A stretch of 64,000 bases of DNA from Falsihalocynthiibacter arcticus (GTDB taxonomy: Bacteria; Pseudomonadota; Alphaproteobacteria; Rhodobacterales; Rhodobacteraceae): positions 2,757,501 to 2,821,500 of the forward strand of contig NZ_CP014327.1 in NCBI RefSeq assembly GCF_000812665.2. The letters are read 5' to 3'. Of the stretch, positions 11,800 to 33,051 are shown piece after piece; position 1 is the stretch's first letter; the number at the start of each line of letters is the position of its first letter. Under the pieces are notes generated by a model. It was given only the letters and a program-made list of their open reading frames with translations, had not been told where the DNA came from and searched no databases. The position numbers were made by a program, and so were the translations under genes.

Positions 11800-13188
11800 T
11801 CACACGTTTAACAACAGATGCTGCCGCTCCCATGGTGAAATTTCACGCTGGTACTCCTCGTTTTCCGCAAGCTTAATATCCAAATAAAGCTGACAGAACT
11901 CAGGGCCCAGAATTTCCCAGACTTCCTTGGCATCCGCGAAAATATCGAGCGCTGCGTTCAGGCTTGGAGGGAGACGGTCGTCCGTTTCCCAGACCTCGTT
12001 TCGGGCTTCCGCACGCGGCTCAATCTTGTTTTTCATGCCAAGCAAACCACAGGCCAGAGACGTCGCAATCGCCAGATACGGATTGCAATCCATTCCGATT
12101 ACGCGGTTTTCCAATCGGCGTCCTTCTGGAGGGGAGTGCGGAACGCGCAAGCCAGTCGTGCGGTTGTCGGCGGCCCATTCCAAATTGGCGGGCGCGCTTT
12201 GTCCCTCAACGGTAATGCGACGGTAGGAGTTGATATAGGGGGCGAGCAACGGCACAGATTGCATCAGATATTTTTGCGACCCTCCGATGAAGTGATAAAA
12301 CTTTTCGGTGGCAGAGCCATCCTCATTCGAGAAGATATTTTTGCCGGTTTCTTTGTCGACAATCGATTGGTGAAGGTGCATCGCGCTTCCGGGTTCGTCG
12401 CGCATCGGTTTCGCCATAAAGGTTGCGAAAATGCCGTTCAAAAGCGCCGCTTCACGGATGGTGCGCTTGAAATAGAACACTTGGTCGGCGAGCAACAACG
12501 GGTCGCCATGTTGTAGATTAATCTCGATCTGGCCCGCGCCGCCCTCCTGAATGACGGTGTCGATTTGCAATCCCTGCGCCTCTGCGAAATCATAGATCGT
12601 ATCAATAACGGGCCCATATTCGTCCACTGCGGACATTGAGAAAACTTGCCGTCCGGCACTTTTGCGCCCCGTGCGGCCAATCGGTGGCTCGATGGGCTCA
12701 TTTGGATCGACGTTTGGCTTGGCCAGATAAAACTCGATTTCTGGGGCGACAACAGGTTTCAATCCTAGTTCATCATAGAGCTTTAGAACCCGTCGCAGTA
12801 CATTGCGCGGCGCAACTTCCAAATCCGCACCCTCGCGCGTTTTCATATCACAGATAATCTGCAACGTCGGTTCACCCGCCCAAGGGGCCGCGGATGCGGT
12901 GTTCATATCTGGAACGAGGATAACGTCTTTTTCAAGCCACTGGTTCTCGATTTCCATATCCACAAACTCACCGGAAATCGTCTGATAAAAGAGCGAAATT
13001 GGCAGGTAGAATATCTCGTCTGGTTTAAACTTATATGCGGGCATCGCCTTGCCGCGCGATGTCCCAACGAGGTCTGGAATGATGCATTCCACCTCGTCAA
13101 TGGAGCGACCATCAAGGTATTCCAAAAAAGCAGTTGGAAGACTGTCAGCCCACGATTCGGTTTTCTTGATTTTCCTAATTTTAGACAC
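11800..13188 (-). CDS. Glutamine synthetase family protein (gamma-glutamyl-polyamine synthetase-like, second copy)
   Basis: A GS-family ligase of 462 residues. Landmarks are PVVAPEIEFYLAKP, EINLQHGDPLLLADQ, PGSAMHLHQSIV and NPYLAIATSLACGLLG. The frame is open to a TTG at 13218, but AAAGGAAG lies six bases before a GTG at 13188, which is the likely start. It clusters with a PuuB-like oxidase, a GntR/FCD regulator and potFGHI, so it probably glutamylates a polyamine. The sequence differs clearly from PuuA at 6795-8108 (longer insertion after the EIEFYL motif), which suggests another substrate such as spermidine or ethanolamine. That last point is inference. Confidence 0.86.
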   Translation of the reverse strand: MSKIRKIKKTESWADSLPTAFLEYLDGRSIDEVECIIPDLVGTSRGKAMPAYKFKPDEIFYLPISLFYQTISGEFVDMEIENQWLEKDVILVPDMNTASAAPWAGEPTLQIICDMKTREGADLEVAPRNVLRRVLKLYDELGLKPVVAPEIEFYLAKPNVDPNEPIEPPIGRTGRKSAGRQVFSMSAVDEYGPVIDTIYDFAEAQGLQIDTVIQEGGAGQIEINLQHGDPLLLADQVFYFKRTIREAALLNGIFATFMAKPMRDEPGSAMHLHQSIVDKETGKNIFSNEDGSATEKFYHFIGGSQKYLMQSVPLLAPYINSYRRITVEGQSAPANLEWAADNRTTGLRVPHSPPEGRRLENRVIGMDCNPYLAIATSLACGLLGMKNKIEPRAEARNEVWETDDRLPPSLNAALDIFADAKEVWEILGPEFCQLYLDIKLAENEEYQREISPWERQHLLLNV

Positions 13189-18089: not shown

Positions 18090-18533
18090 ATGAAGAACTC
18101 CTTTGCACATTTTTCCAGATTATTACTGATCGTGAGTTTCGCCTTGAGCAGTGCTGTTGCCGTAGCTGGCAGTAGTGACACAGGCGTTTTCATGGAAATT
18201 TGCGCCGACGGTGTAGCTAAAACGGTGCGGATCGACGACGACAGCAATGCAGTTGACCCTTCGCACACCTGTAATGGTTGCGTGATGTGCTGTCTGCAGA
18301 TCGGCGCGGATCTGGAAAATTCTTTTGGCCAGAAGCTGACCTTCGCGCAGCTGGAACTTAAAAAAGATCTCGCTTCTTACCAAATACCCTTAATTCAAAA
18401 ACGTGGCATTCGCCCGAACCCACGCAGCCCTCCCCTAACTGAATTTTCAGGCCTGATCTCAACTGATACTATAGAGTTCACCCTGAAAACACAGAGCGAC
18501 GGGCGCCCTTACCTGAAGGATGCTGTCGCATGA
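18090..18533 (+). CDS. Exported cysteine-rich protein, probable NosC-like
   Basis: A 147-residue protein with a signal peptide (about residues 1-26, ending in AVAVAGS) and a compact cysteine cluster, CNGCVMCCLQ, near residues 62-71. The rest has no domain I recognise. It is under an FNR-type box and overlaps the nosR start by four bases (ATGA), the place held by nosC in Paracoccus-type nos operons. I therefore call it NosC-like; the function of NosC is not established. A role in metal or redox handling is suggested by the cysteines but not shown. It seems intact although the genes it served are gone. Confidence 0.6.
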   Translation: MKNSFAHFSRLLLIVSFALSSAVAVAGSSDTGVFMEICADGVAKTVRIDDDSNAVDPSHTCNGCVMCCLQIGADLENSFGQKLTFAQLELKKDLASYQIPLIQKRGIRPNPRSPPLTEFSGLISTDTIEFTLKTQSDGRPYLKDAVA

Positions 18534-18931
18534 CGCTCCATAAAAACCTCCTGAATTTCGTCGCATTCGTTGTGACATTGTTTTTCTTAGCGCTCCCCGC
18601 AGCCGCTGAATCGGTTCTCGCCAAACTGCTCCCCAGTGTTCTGGTCGAGGAATTGGTCGAAGGGGCGGATGCCTTTGGTGCCATGAGCGCGGAAATTCCA
18701 GCGGTGGAGGTTCTCAAAGACGGAGAGCGCATCGGTTGGGCCTTTGTTACGTCCGATTATGTTTCGACCACTGGCTATTCTGGCAAACCCATTCACACCA
18801 TGGTCGCGCTCGACGACGCGGCACAGGTGGCGGGTGTGCTTCTTGTCAAACACTCCGAACCGATTGTTTTGATTGGTATTCCCGACGCAAAGATGAAAGC
18901 GCTGGTAGCCAATTTGTCAATCGCAGAGTAA
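18530..18931 (+). pseudogene. nosR: 5' fragment of nosR, truncated by an IS21 element
   Basis: NosR is a large membrane flavo-iron-sulfur protein (about 700 residues) needed for nitrous-oxide reductase expression and activity. Only the signal peptide and the start of the FMN-binding domain remain (133 codons). Matching stretches are GADAFGAMSAEIPAVEV, TSDYVSTTGYSGKPIH and EPIVLIGIPDAKM. About residue 128 onward (SIAE and the stop) is read from the IS end. The membrane part and ferredoxin-like C-terminus are absent, and no nosZ follows on the other side of the IS. It cannot function as NosR. Confidence 0.75.
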
Positions 18932-18983
18932 AAAGGGTCCAGATCGCGGCGTAAAACTGGTCCACTGACTTCTCGTTTGTCGT

Positions 18984-19031
18984 GCGCTTTGGTGCGCGTG
19001 CTCCCCATTTAGCTAACGCGTGCCAAAGCGC
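18984..19031. repeat. Imperfect inverted repeat inside the left end of the IS
   Basis: A 16-base arm at 18984-18999 pairs with 19016-19031 at 14 of 16 positions around a 16-base loop. It lies just beyond the istB stop on its transcribed side, so it may terminate istAB transcription or limit read-through into the IS end. Confidence 0.5.
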
Positions 19032-19077
19032 ATGTTGGCCCTTGGGCCGACATTGTTCTGATCTTGATGTGTTTTGG

Positions 19078-19830
19078 TTATTGGCGGCTCTTACGGCTAT
19101 GTTTGAGCCGGTAACTCTCGCCATTCATCTCCAGGATATGGACGTGATGGGTCAAACGATCCAGCAAAGCGCCTGTGAGCCGTTCGGAACCAAAGACTTC
19201 GGTCCACTCATCGAAAGGCAGGTTCGAGGTGATTATAATTGAGCCGCGTTCGTAGCACTGGGATATCACCTCGAAGAGGAGTTCCGCACCAGATTTGCTG
19301 AGGGGCACAAATCCCAATTCATCAATGATCAACAGGTTCTGGCTCGTCAGGTGCTTTTGAAGCCGCTGCAATCTCCGCTCATCCTGCGCTTCAATCAGAT
19401 CATGGACCAGGGCTGCCGCCGTCGTGAAGCGCACTTTCAACCCTCTTTGGCATGCCGCCAACCCAAGCCCCAAAGCAATGTGCGTCTTACCGGTTCCCGA
19501 TGGGCCGAGGGCGATGATATTTTCTCTGCGATCTATATAATCACATCGTGCGAGGTCCATTGTCAGCGGTTTGTTCAAGCTGGGCATAATCTTGAAGTCA
19601 AAGCTATCCAGGCTTTTGGTGCTTGGGAACTTCGCCGCTTTGATCCGCCGTTCGATCATCCGGCGCTCCCGATCTATCAGTTCCATCTCGCACAGGCGCG
19701 CCAAATATTGAATGTGATCCTTATTCTCGGCAGCACATATCTGGGCTTGTTTTGCGTACTCCCCTTGGAACGTTGGCAAGCGTAACTTCTTGAGGTGATG
19801 TTGCAGAAGGATTTGGGGGGCTTGGGTCAT
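19078..19830 (-). CDS. istB: IS21-family helper ATPase IstB
   Basis: A 250-residue AAA+ ATPase. Walker A is GPSGTGKTH near residue 109 and Walker B is LLIIDELGF near 170. IstB assembles on DNA and directs the IstA transposase to target. The start overlaps the istA stop by four bases, the usual coupling. It appears intact, so the element may still be mobile. Confidence 0.93.
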   Translation of the reverse strand: MTQAPQILLQHHLKKLRLPTFQGEYAKQAQICAAENKDHIQYLARLCEMELIDRERRMIERRIKAAKFPSTKSLDSFDFKIMPSLNKPLTMDLARCDYIDRRENIIALGPSGTGKTHIALGLGLAACQRGLKVRFTTAAALVHDLIEAQDERRLQRLQKHLTSQNLLIIDELGFVPLSKSGAELLFEVISQCYERGSIIITSNLPFDEWTEVFGSERLTGALLDRLTHHVHILEMNGESYRLKHSRKSRQ

Positions 19831-21326
19831 GCCGCGGTCCCTCCCATCAGGCTCATGTAGCTGGCCGGACGTGTTGTTCCAACGTTTGCCTTTGGCAGAT
19901 AAGGATAGAAGTCCAAATCCAAGCGCGGTGGGCGCTTCTCAACTCGGCACAACACAAGGTGTTTTACAGCGTCATAGCCAATCGCGCCCAGATCAATGGC
20001 ATGCTGGATCGCACCCTGCACAACATCCATCTCAAAGGTTTCCAAAAGGCGCAGGACTTGAACATATTCCCGCTTGCCCGGCTTACCCATTCTGGCTTCG
20101 AGCAGTCGGTGCAAGGTAGCGAAGACATCCGGTAGATCCCAGCCCTGCAAAGGGGCGGCTTGATCCAAAGCCCCCACCTTCTGCTCAATCAAAGGCAGGA
20201 AGTGGAGCGGGTCAAAGATCATGTCCGCTTTGGCGTAAGACCGCTGATGCCGTGCTATCACCTCATTGCCGCAGCCAATAATGACCTCATGCACAAAGCC
20301 ACGCACGTGGACGTCGTGATGGGCATAGGCCACGGGCACAGAGTAATCATTGCTACGGTAGCGCACCATTGAGATTGATGTGGCCCGCGTGCTGACATGG
20401 TCGCAGGCCTCATACTCTGCGACAGGCAACCCCATCAGGGCATCAAGATCGGATATCAAACGCTGGCCAATAGTCTGGCTGTGTCCGCGCAATTTGTCAC
20501 TCTGGCGTTCCAAACACCTCTGTTCCAAGTGCGCATTCAGATCATCAAAACTGTCGTAACGTGGCGCAGGCACCATGAAGTTGCGTCGAGTGTATCCGAC
20601 CATGCCCTCAACGTTGCCTTTGTCGTTCCCCCGCGCAGGCCGACCAAACTTGTCATCAAACAGATAATGCGATTGCAGTTCTGTAAACCGGCGTGTGCGA
20701 ACACGTGTTCTGTCCCCTAAAATACGCGCAACAGCGATCTTGGTGTTGTCATAGAGAATGGATTGGGGGATGCCGCCGAAGAACGCAAAGGCAGACACGT
20801 GGCCGTCGCAAAACGCTTCTGTCGTCTCCGCAGGGTATCCCTTCACAAACACTGCGTCCGAATGCGGTAGGCTCATCACGAAGAAGTGGATCTTACATTC
20901 TACGCCGCCAATCACGCCAAGGGTCTCACCAAAATCAACCTGCGCGTGGCCGGGCCGATGCGACAACGGCACAAACACCTCTTTCGTGCGCCGCTTTTGC
21001 TCGCGTACGTAATACGTCACAGTCGTCAAGCTGCCAGTATATCCATGCTCGGCTCTCAGGCGTTCATAGATGCGCTTTGCTGTATGGCGTTGTTTTTTGA
21101 TCAGGGTTTTATCAGTCCGAAGTATCTCGTCGATGATGCCAACATAATCATCAAGCGTGGGGCGACGTGGCGCTTCTGAACGACGATAACCAGGAGGGAG
21201 TTCATGACGTAGCATCTTCGCTATCGTCTTACGGTCCTTGTTGAAATAACGCGCCGCTTCACGAGCAGACATGCCGTCCTTCAAACAAGCACGGCGCACA
21301 CGACTATAAATATCCACAGAATACAT
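19827..21326 (-). CDS. istA: IS21-family transposase IstA
   Basis: A 499-residue DDE transposase with an N-terminal helix-turn-helix (MSAREAARYFNKDRKTIAKML) and an rve catalytic core beginning at PGHAQVDFGE. The remaining acidic residues lie in the core to about residue 280. A C-terminal Mu-type segment includes STRATSISMVRYRSNDYSVP. It is full length for the family, and the reading frame is unbroken. Confidence 0.93.
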   Translation of the reverse strand: MYSVDIYSRVRRACLKDGMSAREAARYFNKDRKTIAKMLRHELPPGYRRSEAPRRPTLDDYVGIIDEILRTDKTLIKKQRHTAKRIYERLRAEHGYTGSLTTVTYYVREQKRRTKEVFVPLSHRPGHAQVDFGETLGVIGGVECKIHFFVMSLPHSDAVFVKGYPAETTEAFCDGHVSAFAFFGGIPQSILYDNTKIAVARILGDRTRVRTRRFTELQSHYLFDDKFGRPARGNDKGNVEGMVGYTRRNFMVPAPRYDSFDDLNAHLEQRCLERQSDKLRGHSQTIGQRLISDLDALMGLPVAEYEACDHVSTRATSISMVRYRSNDYSVPVAYAHHDVHVRGFVHEVIIGCGNEVIARHQRSYAKADMIFDPLHFLPLIEQKVGALDQAAPLQGWDLPDVFATLHRLLEARMGKPGKREYVQVLRLLETFEMDVVQGAIQHAIDLGAIGYDAVKHLVLCRVEKRPPRLDLDFYPYLPKANVGTTRPASYMSLMGGTAA

Positions 21327-21382
21327 CTCCCGCCCTCCGAATAAACGAAGGACACAAACTGGCGGAATTTTACTCCGCTACA

Positions 21383-23058
21383 ACTGCGATATGTCGAAGC
21401 TGTTTCTGTGGCCCAGTATTGCAGTGCGTTTTACACGTGCGTGGGTTGCGCAAGATTTCATTCCAATATCCAACGGAGCCGTATTCCAAAATCCCGAGAC
21501 GGATCGCGCAGGCTTTGTTGCCCAACTTCGCGAAGCAAGCCTCACAGGCCATCCGGCGGTTATGTCGTTTGACCTGACAACCAAATATGCTGCGGAGCTT
21601 ATTGCAACTCTGCCGGACCTGTTTGCCGATTTGCGGCGCGACGGGTTCACGTTTGCGCCCTTGGCCGAAGTTGCTAACCTTGGTACGGCGGATATAGCCC
21701 CGCTCGATCCGAATTCAATGAGGGCGCGCGACACGGTCACCTATCGCCTTCTCAACTTCTGGTATTTTGGCCTGACGACAACCTTCCTTGTCTTGCTCGT
21801 TTTTGCGATTGCCAGATCGCTAATTTACCTCGTTTTGGCTTTCTTTCGCAAACCTTCGCCACAGCGTGACCCTGAATACCTTCCGGGGATTACAGTTGTG
21901 GTGCCAGCCTATAACGAGGCGAACGTTATTGTGCGGAGCGTTTGGTCAATTCTGGGTTCGAACTATCCCAACTTTGAAATCATCGTGGTGGATGATGGCT
22001 CGTCTGACGGAACCTATGAGTCGGTCAACGCAGAGTTTCACAATCATCCACGCGTAAGGATCATCCGGCAAGAAAACGGCGGCAAATGGCAGGCCGAGAA
22101 CCACGCGTTGCAGTATATCAAAACGCCCTTCTTTGTGGGGGTGGATGCCGATACTATTTTAGATCCTGATGCTCTAGGTTGGTTGGTTCAGCACTTCAAA
22201 GACGAGCGTGTCGGCGCGGTGGCTGGCTTTGTGGAGGTCGGCAATCGAAAGGGGTATCTGACGTCCTGCCAAGCGCTGGAATACCTCGTCAGCCAAGCGG
22301 TCACGCGGCGCAGTTTCGAAGCCATCAACGGTATTTTTGTTGTGCCCGGTGCGATCGGGGCTTGGCGGGTTGCGGCAGTTGAGGCCGCAAATAGGTATTC
22401 GGGCGATACAATCACCGAGGATGCTGACCTAACGGTTGCGGTACATCGCGCCGGTTATACCGTGCGATTTCAAGAACAAGCGCGCGCCTATACTGAGGCC
22501 CCCGAACAGACCAAAGCTTTCTTAAAGCAACGGCGGCGCTGGACGTTGGGGATGCTGCAAACGTCGTGGAAACATTGGCGCTCTATTCCAGAACGCCGTG
22601 CGATAGGGCTTGTGTCGATTATGGACGCGATCTGGTTTAGTCTGTTGACGAGTATGGTGTCGCCCTTCGTCGATTTGCTTTTGCTTAGCCTTCTGGTCAA
22701 GACGTTGATTGAATATAGCCTTCATGGAGCGCTCAACGTCACAGGATTTCCAACCGTGGTCTTGATCAGCTATTTTGTTCTTGTGGTTATCGACATGACC
22801 TACACTCTTGCAGCGTTCTGGTTTGAACGAAAGTTCGACCTAAAACTGCTGTTGCTGACAATTATCCTGCGTTTTGGATACCGGCAACTGATCTATTTTT
22901 CGTCCTTTCAAGCGATCAGAGACGCGATAACTGGCCGCTTGCCCGGCTGGCAAAAACTGGAACGTACAGCTTCCCGACTAAGCGGCAACCTAAATTTGGT
23001 GAGCCCAGCTCTTGTGAGCATAAAACAAACAGACTCGGGCCGGAAAATGAGAACTTAA
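21383..23058 (+). pseudogene. 5'-truncated polysaccharide deacetylase-GT2 fusion protein
   Basis: The frame opens at the IS right edge (first ATG 21391, 555 codons). The first 75 or so residues look like the tail of a NodB-type deacetylase domain (GHPAVMSFDLTT, LPDLFADLRRDGFTFAPL). A membrane span follows, then a family 2 glycosyltransferase domain: VVVPAYNEAN, VVDDGSSDG, DADT, ITEDADLTV and QRRRW, with three or more C-terminal membrane segments. The QxxRW motif marks processive synthases of beta-linked polymers. The deacetylase catalytic part and the native start are missing, evidently lost with the IS event. The GT half could still be made from ATG 21391, but without its natural promoter. 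Confidence 0.7.
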
Positions 23059-23096
23059 AACCTGTCAGTCGGGTTGCAGAACGAAAGTAGTTGCAG

Positions 23097-25064
23097 ATGA
23101 AATATCGTCCAGAGATCGACGGACTGCGAGCCATAGCAGTTCTCGCGGTCATTGTTTATCATGCTGATAATACATTCTTGAGAGGAGGGTTCCTTGGGGT
23201 GGATGTCTTCTTCGTGATTTCGGGTTTCTTGATCTCGCAATTGATTGCGGAGGATTTGAGACTCGGACGATTTACCTTCAGGAACTTCTATGAGCGCCGC
23301 GCGCGGCGCATCCTGCCTGCGCTCTTTGTTGTCCTTGCCACCTGCATTCCCTTTGCGCTGGCATGGATGTTGCCGTCTCAACTGGCCGATTTTGGCAAAG
23401 GGTTGGTTGCAGCCTCGCTTTTTTCTTCGAATTTCCTGTTTTGGTCGGACACGGGATATTTCATGGCGGATGCCGACCTCAACCCACTGCTTCACACATG
23501 GAGCCTCGCCGTTGAGGAACAGTTTTATCTGTTTTTCCCCTTGGCGGCCCTATTGGCGTGGAAAGTATCGCAGCGCTTTGCGGCCATCTTGCTCGTGGCC
23601 AGTATGGTCGCAAGTTTTGCCGCTTGCCTTTACTTCGCAACCTCGGCCCCAGCCGCCAATTTTTACCTACTGCCCACCCGCGCATGGGAACTTCTGGCCG
23701 GTGGAATTAGCATGATGGTCGCGCGCCAATTTGCACAGAAACCTGTCACAGTCGCCAAACCGGTTGCCACGATTTTAGCGACATTAGGTCTGTTCGCTGT
23801 CATTTCATCCCTCTTGCTGCTTGACGCCTCTACGCCCGTTCCGTCGCTCTCGACACTCCCCTTAGTTGTGGGTACTTCCTTGATTTTAGTGTTTGCAGTT
23901 GGCAACACTCCAGTCGCATCGCTTTTGTCGTGGCGACCATTGGTTGCCATGGGGTTGATCAGTTACAGCGCGTATCTGTGGCATCTTCCCGTATTGGTTT
24001 TTGCGCGACTATACGATTCAACACCCCCAAGTATCCCCTACGTTCTCGGCTTGATTGCCTTGTCGATCTTGTTGGCGACGCTCACCTACCACTTCGTTGA
24101 AAAACCCTTCCGCAAACGTAACAAAAGTGCCGTGATATCCTTGCGCGGGCTTGTCTCGGTACTGTTAGGCGCGGGCGTATCTCTCGCCGTCGTCGGTGTC
24201 GTGCTGGCAATGGGATTGACCAATCCACACCGCGACCCGTCAGTGTTTTCTGACCCAGAAATCGAGGCAAAACTCGCCACTAATTACGGCCTGTCCGAAG
24301 ATTGCGAGGGAGCCTTTACGCTTTCCCCGAACTGCCGCACCTCCGACACACCCGGTGTGCTGCTATGGGGAGATAGTTTTTCCATGCATCTGGCCGAAGC
24401 GATTGAGGTCGGCACAAAATGGCAAGGTATGGTGCAACATACGAAATCGGTTTGCGCCCCAATCCCGGGCCTTTCCGTCGTCACTCCTGAATATCCTGAC
24501 GCATGGGCGCGCGGTTGTCTGGATTTCAACGAACAGGTGTTGGCTTGGTTGGCGGATCAACCGTCGATCAAATACGTCGTCATGTCTTCGCCCTTTGGCC
24601 TGATTTACAACGAACTGCTGTTGGCCAACGGGGAGCACGTAACCGAAGGGCAGCAAGAGTTGGTACGTCAATCCCTCCTCGAAACGTCCCGCAAACTCAA
24701 AGCCATGGGCAAGTCCTTGGTAGTTGTTTCCCCTCCGCCTGTCACTGGCGAAAATATAGGACAGTGTCTGGCGGCTACTTTGCGGTCGGGTCGCTCCGAC
24801 GATAGCTGTGACTACACGCGCAGCGATTTTCATCCTGCGAGCACCGCCAAAATAGACTTTTTGCGGACATTGGACCCCGAGATATCGGTCTTATATCTTG
24901 AGGATTTCCTGTGCCCGAATGGCGTGTGTGACACAATGATCGGATCGACATTCATGTTTCGCGACGATGGACATCTCTCGATCGAAGGATCGCGCTATCT
25001 CGGGACGCATACTGATTTCATGCGTAAAATCATTGCTAAATCCAATTTAGGGTATGGAGCTTAG
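23097..25064 (+). CDS. Acyltransferase family 3 protein with C-terminal SGNH domain (OafA/OatA-like)
   Basis: A 655-residue membrane protein. The N-terminal half is acyltransferase-3, with about ten membrane segments; motifs are RPEIDGLRAIAVLAVI, FRNFYERRARRILPA and HTWSLAVEEQFYLFFP. The C-terminal half is an extracytoplasmic SGNH hydrolase-like domain: the block I serine is in LLWGDSFSMH (about residue 425) and the closing Asp/His in RDDGHLSIEG. Such proteins O-acetylate cell-wall, LPS or exopolysaccharide sugars. It follows the deacetylase-GT2 remnant by about 40 bases, so it likely modified the same polymer. ATG 23097 is chosen over an upstream TTG. Confidence 0.88.
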   Translation: MKYRPEIDGLRAIAVLAVIVYHADNTFLRGGFLGVDVFFVISGFLISQLIAEDLRLGRFTFRNFYERRARRILPALFVVLATCIPFALAWMLPSQLADFGKGLVAASLFSSNFLFWSDTGYFMADADLNPLLHTWSLAVEEQFYLFFPLAALLAWKVSQRFAAILLVASMVASFAACLYFATSAPAANFYLLPTRAWELLAGGISMMVARQFAQKPVTVAKPVATILATLGLFAVISSLLLLDASTPVPSLSTLPLVVGTSLILVFAVGNTPVASLLSWRPLVAMGLISYSAYLWHLPVLVFARLYDSTPPSIPYVLGLIALSILLATLTYHFVEKPFRKRNKSAVISLRGLVSVLLGAGVSLAVVGVVLAMGLTNPHRDPSVFSDPEIEAKLATNYGLSEDCEGAFTLSPNCRTSDTPGVLLWGDSFSMHLAEAIEVGTKWQGMVQHTKSVCAPIPGLSVVTPEYPDAWARGCLDFNEQVLAWLADQPSIKYVVMSSPFGLIYNELLLANGEHVTEGQQELVRQSLLETSRKLKAMGKSLVVVSPPPVTGENIGQCLAATLRSGRSDDSCDYTRSDFHPASTAKIDFLRTLDPEISVLYLEDFLCPNGVCDTMIGSTFMFRDDGHLSIEGSRYLGTHTDFMRKIIAKSNLGYGA

Positions 25065-25233
25065 TAACGGGGAAATATTCGCGTTGATGCCAGCTATGGG
25101 AAAATGTTTCACTGAGGTCTGGCGTCGCTAAATCCAAAAGAATTGCATATAAATTCAAGAAAAGGCTGCTCGCCAGATTTTAGATTTAGAGGCGCCGTGC
25201 AAATTACGTTTTTAAGACAATTTGCTCAAATAT
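25065..25233. other. Short AT-rich spacer without a recognised gene
   Basis: A 169-bp stretch between the acyltransferase stop and the DUF3302 remnant. It has no open frame of note, no clear SD and no strong hairpin. Confidence 0.5.
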
Positions 25234-25554
25234 ATGATTTTTATGCCTATCACATTGTTAAATTACGTTTCTCGCTCTCTGATTTCCTTCTTAATCGTGG
25301 GGATCGTTGTCGTCCATGAAATCCCGGGGAAAGTCGCAAAAGCGCGCAACCACCCACAGTTGGATGCGATTAAGATCTCCAGTTATTTAGGCTTACTTGT
25401 CTTTCCACTATGGATACTTGCCCTCATCCGGGCACATTTCCGCCCTTGGACTGTTTCAGGTCTTGAGGGGATAATTCCGAAAGTCCTCCGCTGGAACAGA
25501 AATAGCCCCCGCCAACGACCCCTTCATCATACAACCCAGTCAGGACGCCAGAAA
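25234..25554 (+). pseudogene. DUF3302 (YiaW/YibI-like) membrane protein, frame now fused to the next gene
   Basis: A small inner-membrane protein with two membrane segments; the signature VVHEIPGKVAKARNHPQLDAI followed by a tryptophan-containing span matches DUF3302 proteins such as E. coli YiaW. In that family the gene is separate and sits before an HlyD-type partner. Here no stop separates them, and the tail (RPWTVSGLEGII onward) reads straight into the HlyD start. In a shifted frame the tail ends LEQK and then a stop at about 25503, so a frameshift near 25465 is likely. The start is uncertain; no good SD is visible. Confidence 0.55.
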
Positions 25555-26581
25555 ATGGAATTCCTTGTTACGATTGCCTATCTGTTTTTGATCCGGTTGT
25601 TTTTCTTTGATTTTAAATGGTTGAAGTTCAATCTTGTGTGGGGGCTTTTGTGCTCTGGCCTTCATACTTCGGCCGCTTTGGTTGAGGTTGCTTTTATTGG
25701 ACAACTTACTCCTTATTCGGATTCCGCGTTTGTCCAGAGATACGCCGTCCAGATTGGGCCCCAATTTTGCGGCACAGTAACAGAGGTTCACGTTAAACAG
25801 GACGACATAGTGAAGCTCGGCGGTCCTTTGTTCAGTCTTGAGAAGGACACGTTCCAAGCTATGGTCGATGAAAGTCAAGCCCGTCTGGTTTTGGCCAAGC
25901 AAAATATAAAAATCATGTAGGCGCAATTGACCTCTGCCGAAGCAAATGTTGCGCATCAGGAAAGCTTTCTTGAGCAGACTTCCGTTGAGGTTGAGCTTTC
26001 CGAAGCAGCTGTCTTGGTGGCACAGGCCCGAGCGAAATATGATGTCGACGATGCGGCCAGACAAACAATACTGGCAGAAGAAGGTGCTGCACGAAAGGGC
26101 CAAGCGGAGCTTGCGCGTCAGCCCGCGGCGGTCTCAACCGAACTGATTGCGCGTGATAGCTCCGAGCTGGACGTTGCAAAGGCAGCCTACGAAGAAGCAA
26201 AACTGTCGCTTGATGCGATGATCGATGGCAAACATGCCTCCGTTAGATTGGCTGAGGCGGCGTTGGCCCATTCCACAGCAGTTTTGAAGGACCGCACAGT
26301 CTATGCGCCCTCGGATGGTAAGGTTCTGAACCTCCAGCTTCAACCCAGCAATGTTGTGCGGCTTAAAACGCCCGTCCTGACATTCGTGAACGAAGCCGAT
26401 CCTTGGATTTTGATGAAAATTCGCCAAAAAGATGCGCAGCATATCACCGTTGCGTTTTGGGGCTAAGGGGATCGCTGCGATTTATACCGCCGACGCGGCC
26501 AATAATCTTAAGGTCTTGCGGAAAATTGAACTGCGTACCGAGAGTTATCTTAAATACGTTTACAATTCATTCCGAGGATAA
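25555..26581 (+). pseudogene. HlyD/YiaV-like membrane-fusion protein, decayed
   Basis: The N-terminus (MEFLVTIAYLFLIRLFF) has one or two membrane spans; a biotinyl-lipoyl-like segment (GTVTEVHVKQDDIVKLGG), a coiled coil (to about 26280) and a second half-barrel (YAPSDGKVLNLQLQPSNVV) follow. A TAG at 25918-25920 interrupts the coil (probably CAG to TAG). The frame stops at 26464-26466. The expected C-terminus (GIAAIYTADAANNLKVLRK, to a TAA at 26579-26581) is found one frame over, and about 60 residues that YiaV has between these parts are missing. So there is a nonsense codon, a frameshift and an internal deletion; it is non-functional. YiaV/YiaW pairs are linked to envelope integrity, but their substrate is not known. 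Confidence 0.72.
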
Positions 26582-31789: not shown

Positions 31790-33051
31790 ATGACGAAATT
31801 GCATCGCTCTTGGGTGGAAAGCGCCAACAACGCCTCGACTTCTTTCCCACTCAATAACTTGCCCTACGGTGTGTTCTCTGTGGGCGAAACCTCTCCGCGA
31901 TGCGGGGTGGCTATTGGGGACTATATCCTTGATATTCAATTGCTTGAAGGCGCAGGGCTGCTCGACTTTAACGGTGCATTTGGGGGGGGGCGTGGAACGC
32001 GTTTATGGCTCAAGGCCGCAGCAAATGGGATGCGCTGCGCACGCGTTTGATCGAGTTGTTGGCCGAGGGAAGCAAAGAGCAGGAGCGCGTCGCGGCCTAC
32101 TTGGTTGCCCAGTGTGAGGCCACCCTACACATGCCCTTTCAAGTGCGCGAATACACCGATTTTTACGCAGGCATTCAGCACGCCAAAAATATGGGTGAAA
32201 TCCTGCGTGGGTCGCCTGATTTGCCCGCGAATTGGTTGCACATTCCCATCGGTTATAATGGGCGCGCGTCCTCGATTGTGGTGTCGGGCACGCCGATCCA
32301 CCGCCCCAACGGCCAGACTAAAGCGCCGGACGCCGAGGTGCCATCCTTTGGCCCAACCAAACGTTTGGACATCGAATTGGAATTGGGCGCCATCGTGGGG
32401 ACGGGCACTAAGTTGGGCCAACCGATTACGGTGGATGAGGCCGACGACATGATCTTTGGCTATGTTCTGCTCAATGATTGGTCTGCGCGCGATATCCAAG
32501 GCTGGGAATACCAACCGCTAGGCCCGTTTCAAGGCAAAGCCTTTGGCACAAGCATCAGCCCGTGGATCGTAACGTCTGCCGCGCTAAACCCCTTCCGCGC
32601 GGCGACACCACCGCGTGTAAAGGCGCTGCTACCCTATTTGAACGGCACAAAAAACGGGTTGTATGACATTGATCTTGAGGTGCTGATGCAACCCCAAGGG
32701 GCTGCGACAGCCACCGTAATCAGCAGAACCAACTACAATCGCATGTATTACTCTGCCGCCGAACAACTGTGCCACCACGCAAGCAGCGGTTGCGCCATGA
32801 ACACGGCGGATTTGTTGGGATCGGGCACAATTTCGGGGCCCACACGCGACGAGTTTGGATCGCTCATGGAACTCAGCTGGGCAGGGCGCAAACCCTTCGC
32901 CTTAGACACTGGCGAAATCCGCAGCTTCATCGAAGACGGTGACACGCTAACTTTGCGAGGTAAAGCGCAAGGGGACGGGTATATCATTGGGTTTGGCGAC
33001 AGTAGCGGGACGATACTTCCCGCTGTAACTCTTGGCCCCTCAGAAGCCTGA
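31790..33051 (+). pseudogene. fahA: Fumarylacetoacetase, broken by a frameshift in a G run
   Basis: FahA hydrolyses fumarylacetoacetate to fumarate and acetoacetate, the last homogentisate step. The first frame (from ATG 31790, MTKLHRSWVESAN) is normal to LDFNGAF, then enters a G9 run (31982-31990) and stops at 32050. The rest, beginning AWNAFMAQGRSKWD, continues in another frame to 33051. Ten Gs would restore one open frame of about 420 residues, the usual length. Metal and active-site motifs survive: YTDFYAGIQHAKNMG, ELELGAIVG and DWSARDIQGWEYQPLGPFQGK. Because the rest is undamaged, a one-base sequencing miss is likely. Otherwise the homogentisate pathway would be blocked. Confidence 0.88.

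Follow-up and report, generated by a model that had tools for sequence, protein, structure and literature searches.

The locus analyzed here raises the question of how a complete insertion sequence (IS) came to lie between the beginning of one gene and the end of another, unrelated one. It belongs to a window of 64,000 nucleotides (positions 2757501 to 2821500 of contig C1) from the alphaproteobacterium Falsihalocynthiibacter arcticus, whose genome assembly consists of two contigs, with a main contig of 4,329,554 bases, and is rated 99.99% complete. An earlier note, made from the letters of the sequence, had described an IS21 element that joins a 3'-truncated nosR gene to a 5'-truncated deacetylase-GT2 glycosyltransferase gene (hereinafter the GT gene), and had attributed this arrangement to deletion or recombination between two copies of the element. 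This reading of the junction proved largely right, and the observation itself is real, with one end of the element corrected.

The element is a complete IS21-family insertion sequence of 2521 bp on the reverse strand (18915..21435, TGT...ACA), with boundaries derived from the 14 full copies present in the genome. It encodes, on the same strand, the 499 aa transposase IstA (19827..21326; NF033546, 6.6e-82, 275 bits against a cutoff of 160) and, directly downstream and overlapping istA by 4 bases, the 250 aa helper ATPase IstB (19078..19830; PF01695, 2e-77; NF038214, 1.4e-85, 287 bits against a cutoff of 200); both genes are intact. Comparison of the ends delineates a left terminal repeat, TGTCAATCGC (18915..18924, forward strand), and an inverted right terminal repeat that reads, as the reverse complement, TGTAAAACGC (21426..21435, reverse strand) and is identical to the left one in 8 of the 10 bases. 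The family assignment and the left end given in the earlier note are upheld, but the right end, which had been placed at 21382, lies 53 bases farther, at 21435. The sequence shared by all 14 full copies runs to ...GCGTTTTACA and diverges beyond this point, and in the three copies that retain target duplications the duplication starts immediately after it. All full copies extend past the equivalent of position 21382, so that this boundary is ruled out. At the corrected ends, the outer flanks GCCAATT (18908..18914, forward strand) and CGTGCGT (21436..21442, forward strand) do not match each other, as had been maintained for the original ends. Among the plasmid-encoded IstA proteins listed, the nearest is that of Sulfitobacter sp. 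SK012 (72.9% identical); a megablast search of the IS DNA against plasmids produced no match.

The left flank is a 5' remnant of nosR, 128 codons long (18530..18914, forward strand), that is cut by the IS and whose frame continues into the element to a stop at 18931. The remnant matches the NCBIfam NosR model with an E-value of 9e-18 and a score of 64 bits, far under the full-length cutoff, as would be expected of a fragment, and shows 66, 50 and 62% identity to the NosR proteins of three genomes (G011, G001 and G028, respectively). A scan of named genomes yielded at least 570 confirmed nosR loci, of which the best 80 were analyzed; the nearest among these, one from Sulfitobacter and two from Litoreibacter, reach 73-75% identity. 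Upstream of the remnant lies a gene for a small protein (18090..18533, forward strand) that has no Pfam or NCBIfam family but has a homolog directly upstream of nosR in G001, a genome of the same genus (26% identity over 117 aa, E-value 3e-8). In 14 of the best 80 loci, a homolog of this protein detected at E-values of 1e-8 or lower ends at the nosR match; at the relaxed threshold of 1e-3, a homolog is present, irrespective of position, in 27 of the 80. Because the small gene also precedes nosR in relatives, the left flank appears to preserve the natural beginning of a nos operon.

Parts of this operon appear to be gone. In the searches for the missing parts, homologs rather than the strain's own sequence were used as queries. 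A 784-aa NosR protein matched the genome only with residues 60-177 (50% identical), and a NosZ query found no match in this nearly complete genome, whereas the same protein matches in 72 of the 80 related loci. Among the best 80 of the at least 570 loci, nosR extends past the position of the window breakpoint in every case and is followed by nosZ (more than 50% identity, partial in a few) in those 72; in the remaining eight, no more than 268 bases separate the nosR match from the end of the locus or contig. The loss of nosZ, which the earlier note had proposed, is therefore borne out by these searches. Elsewhere, the nosZ match in Pseudorhodobacter ferrugineus DSM 5888 (12352-13021 of locus L122) stops after query residue 153 and is followed by an IS21-type istB fragment (55% identity) and then by the contig end, possibly reflecting an independent IS21 insertion in nosZ. 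A literature search on nosR with insertion sequences in Rhodobacteraceae found no report; nos clusters near IS remnants have been described in Ralstonia (PMC9973335).

To the right of the IS lies the 3' part of the GT gene (21436..23058, forward strand), which contains GT2 Pfam domains and is 63% identical to residues 592-1107 of a 1139-aa protein from G187. In this closest homolog (64%), the deacetylase domain occupies residues 474-570 and the GT2 domain residues 738-959; accordingly, the fragment in the window retains the entire GT2 domain and lacks the deacetylase half. Homologs at E-values of 1e-40 or better are found in 27 of the 393 other genomes of the family (28 listed matches); their frames span 1078-1365 residues, and one frame in each of G339 and G131 holds one stop. 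A scan of named genomes with the GT protein gave no yield. When the 1139-aa protein was used as the query, the only close counterpart in the genome was the region of residues 592-1107 (63%), the other hits being four weak matches to the GT2 region, which agrees with the 5' truncation proposed previously. A query with the N-terminal portion from a distant relative found nothing in the genome, a result that says nothing by itself.

Directly after the GT fragment lies an acyltransferase-SGNH gene (23091..25064, forward strand; PF01757 and PF19040). A counterpart occurs in the GT cluster in three of the five relatives whose loci were fetched, namely, directly downstream in G187 (60%) and G309 (46%) and beyond a divergent gene in G416; none was seen in the examined stretches of G150 and G153. 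Given the long homologs and the acyltransferase neighbor in relatives, the right flank is evidently the 3' end of a recurrent cluster that here lacks its first half. An ATG within the end of the IS, at 21391, opens the reading frame that contains the GT fragment and comprises 555 codons; a promoter scan found sites no more frequently than in shuffled sequences (4 versus a mean of 4.2). That the join made a working new gene, encoding a shorter synthase with the whole GT2 domain but without the deacetylase half, seems rather doubtful; if it did, the deletion would have altered the surface polysaccharide, which would no longer be deacetylated, at the same time as N2O reduction was lost. Two other genes on the forward strand of this part of the window also show irregular reading frames. 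A DUF3302/HlyD-type gene near the glycosyltransferase cluster (25222-26466) contains one in-frame stop, which probably points to a pseudogene, to a pair of separate genes or to an error in sequencing, and a fumarylacetoacetase gene (31790-33051) is split over the overlapping frames 31790-32050 and 32005-33051, suggesting a frameshift.

If relatives carried nosR next to the GT gene, the junction could be read as an insertion between two old neighbors. Such an arrangement was sought, and the GT gene occurs in none of the best 80 of the at least 570 nosR loci, within flanks of up to 10 kb on each side. Conversely, a NosR-like match at an E-value of 1e-30 or better is present in 14 of the 27 genomes with the GT gene, and one at 62% identity or higher in nine. 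Seven of these nine genomes carry the close nosR and the GT gene on separate contigs, so that a distance between them is not proven; in the other two, G299 and G079, they share a contig but lie 1.15 Mb and 2.47 Mb apart, respectively, in contig coordinates. In G399, a more distant NosR-like protein (41%) is encoded about 24 kb from the GT gene; because this genome has a 69% identical NosR elsewhere, we take the former to be a paralog. One other species of the genus was examined and possesses nosR but has no GT match at E-values of 1e-30 or lower. The evidence on the ancestral order thus comes from distant relatives, in which the loci are on different contigs or far apart, with no close relative among those compared.

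A search of the genome with the element identified, in addition to the 14 full copies (L001 to L014, L001 being the copy in the window), two partial ones. The full copies fall into two groups: in the first, the window copy, L002 and L003 differ from one another at 1-3 positions and from L004 at 123-126; in the second, L005 to L014 differ mutually at 0-22 positions and from the first group at 348-366. The presence of copies only 0-3 bases different suggests recent movement of the IS. Three of the 14 full copies have target duplications at their own ends, CTCGCA in L004, GTTCGG in L008 and ATAAG in L011, compared with about 0.02 direct repeats of 5-8 bases expected by chance for 14 copies (chance rates were measured between flanks and summed over 5-8 bases). 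The short target duplication typical of the IS21 family is hence a property of this element and is detectable here when present, so that its absence at the window copy is a real difference. Altogether, 11 of the 14 full copies, the window copy included, lack a duplication, and because of this high proportion, other junctions may be scars as well. One of the partial copies, L015 (1501-1731 of that locus), preserves the right end of a related IS copy and lies some 260 bases away from L007, a full copy.

The earlier note had suggested searching for other copies that carry duplications and the matching halves; the former exist, as described above, but no matching halves were found among the 14 full copies. 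When all 14 left flanks were compared with all 14 right flanks, those of the window copy found no partner among the 13 remaining full copies, even when one mismatch was tolerated over 5-8 bases. The right flank of L015 shares no exact stretch of at least 3 bases with any of the left flanks, and the internal fragment L016 has no end and so is outside this pairing. The single cross-copy match of at least 5 bases is the 8-base sequence AATGCCGC common to L010 (left flank) and L014 (right flank), compared with about 0.2 such matches expected for 5-8 bases and about 0.005 at 8 bases; a 4-base match between L003 and L008 (for which the rate was measured) and a 3-base match between L004 and L010 are within chance. 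L010 and L014 are in opposite orientation and about 2.1 Mb apart, so that the match would fit an inversion, in a suggestive manner only. It falls short of proof of an inversion: the match is 8 bases long versus 5-6 in the other duplications. The frame obtained by joining L010 and L014 stays open for no more than 14 codons on the L010 side, and three distant homologs of the VWA-domain gene at this junction, found among 294 other genomes of the family, align only from about residue 23 of the joined peptide, beyond the junction.

Taken together, these findings make it likely that the junction is the scar of an IS-mediated deletion, produced by recombination between two copies or by an equivalent one-sided event. 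The IS has no duplication at its ends, its flanks are parts of two different genes, and the missing parts of both went undetected by homolog queries in a genome rated 99.99% complete. Judging from these comparisons, the junction is derived and DNA has been lost, given that the missing halves are absent, that nosR continues past the breakpoint in all of the best 80 loci and that the GT gene adjoins it in none. Under this scenario, nosR and the GT gene would each have received a copy of the element; recombination between the two copies, or an equivalent event driven from one side by one copy alone, would have removed the intervening DNA, leaving a single IS at the join. On the nos side, nosR would have lost its 3' part, and nosZ would have gone with it, presumably along with the remainder of the operon; the other side would have lost the 5' part of the GT gene and, we infer, its promoter. 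No duplication would remain because each original target repeat would have been split and the partner halves would have disappeared with the lost DNA. An earlier rearrangement probably brought the two loci closer together, since relatives that possess both show no neighborhood; if the ancestral distance exceeded 1 Mb, as it does in G079 and G299, essential genes would probably be lost in a single deletion of that size, so that such a step must be assumed. The order of these events and the enzyme responsible are part of the scenario. The abundance of copies without a duplication in this genome (11 of 14) is supporting context, but the absence of a duplication is no proof by itself, because so many copies lack one and because IS21 may insert without a correct duplication. 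The structural study of IS21 gives 5 bp as the observed repeat and reports that IstB is required for correct target duplications (PMC10122671).

The part of the earlier interpretation that invoked IS-mediated loss accordingly holds, given the truncated unrelated genes and their lost halves, whereas a partner for the two-copy event is missing among the 14 full copies. Within the preferred reading, there is some room for an adjacent deletion, in which a single copy in nosR or in the GT gene would have driven, through its transposase, a deletion from the IS end to a new point. This variant yields the same anatomy, with one IS, no duplication and unrelated flanks, and is indistinguishable here from two-copy recombination, so that the evidence favors neither. 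IS21 elements probably move mainly via tandem or circular intermediates, which counts against the adjacent deletion. Intramolecular replicative transposition that excises a circle has been described for other elements (PMC5142620). Outside the deletion-scar reading, reciprocal recombination between two IS copies, i.e. an inversion or exchange with later loss of the other product, would let loci that are not adjacent in relatives meet without a giant deletion. The lost product would have held the 5' half of the GT gene, an IS and the 3' half of nosR with nosZ side by side, so that one later deletion could remove both missing parts. The pair of L010 and L014 is the one cross-copy match in the genome that resembles such an event, but it is a weak case for the reasons given above. 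We regard this alternative as unlikely: it requires two steps, and without the second step the matching halves should still flank another copy, a partner that is not seen for the window copy among the 14 left and 14 right flanks, so that a deletion with a lost excised product fits.

An assembly chimera, in which the flanks of different copies of this 2.5-kb repeat were misjoined, has to be considered in a genome with 14 long, similar copies, two of them nearly identical to the one in the window. We consider it quite improbable: a main contig of 4.33 Mb in a two-contig assembly implies that the repeats were bridged, and under misassembly the true partners should remain in the genome, yet no permutation of the left and right flanks restores a duplication for the window copy and the missing gene halves are not found elsewhere. 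Simple insertion into one gene is ruled out, as the earlier note had already argued, since the two sides of the IS derive from unrelated genes. The version in which the IS inserted without a duplication at a site where a nosR fragment already adjoined the GT fragment could draw on the role of IstB in correct duplications (PMC10122671) and on the 11 copies that lack one, but it is hardly credible, for both genes would have to have been broken beforehand exactly at the IS ends, and the required neighborhood is found in 0 of the best 80 of the at least 570 nosR loci.

As an IS-mediated deletion scar, the reading favored here, the locus clearly records how an insertion sequence can contribute when a bacterium loses its nitrous oxide reductase, and hence how the ability to reduce N2O can vanish from a lineage. 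The case also indicates how common missing duplications can be in one genome, even for a single IS. A literature search on the absence of target sites found no report. As a mechanism, IS-mediated deletion is already well known and the phenomenon is ordinary. The element itself shows no essential difference from the IS21 family, with which it shares the overlapping pair of transposase and helper ATPase genes, a length of about 2.5 kb, short terminal repeats and, at three copies in the genome, duplications of 5-6 bp. In plasmids, IS events have been traced by target duplications, including deletion between two direct IS copies (PMC5142620); as in the window, an IS lies at the new join of unrelated sequences and the intervening DNA is gone, the difference being that the present case is chromosomal and its parental state is unavailable. 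A parallel in setting is IS-driven rearrangement described in Octadecabacter, of the Roseobacter group (PMC3646047), whose genome, likewise alphaproteobacterial, is rich in IS copies and appears to have been rearranged.
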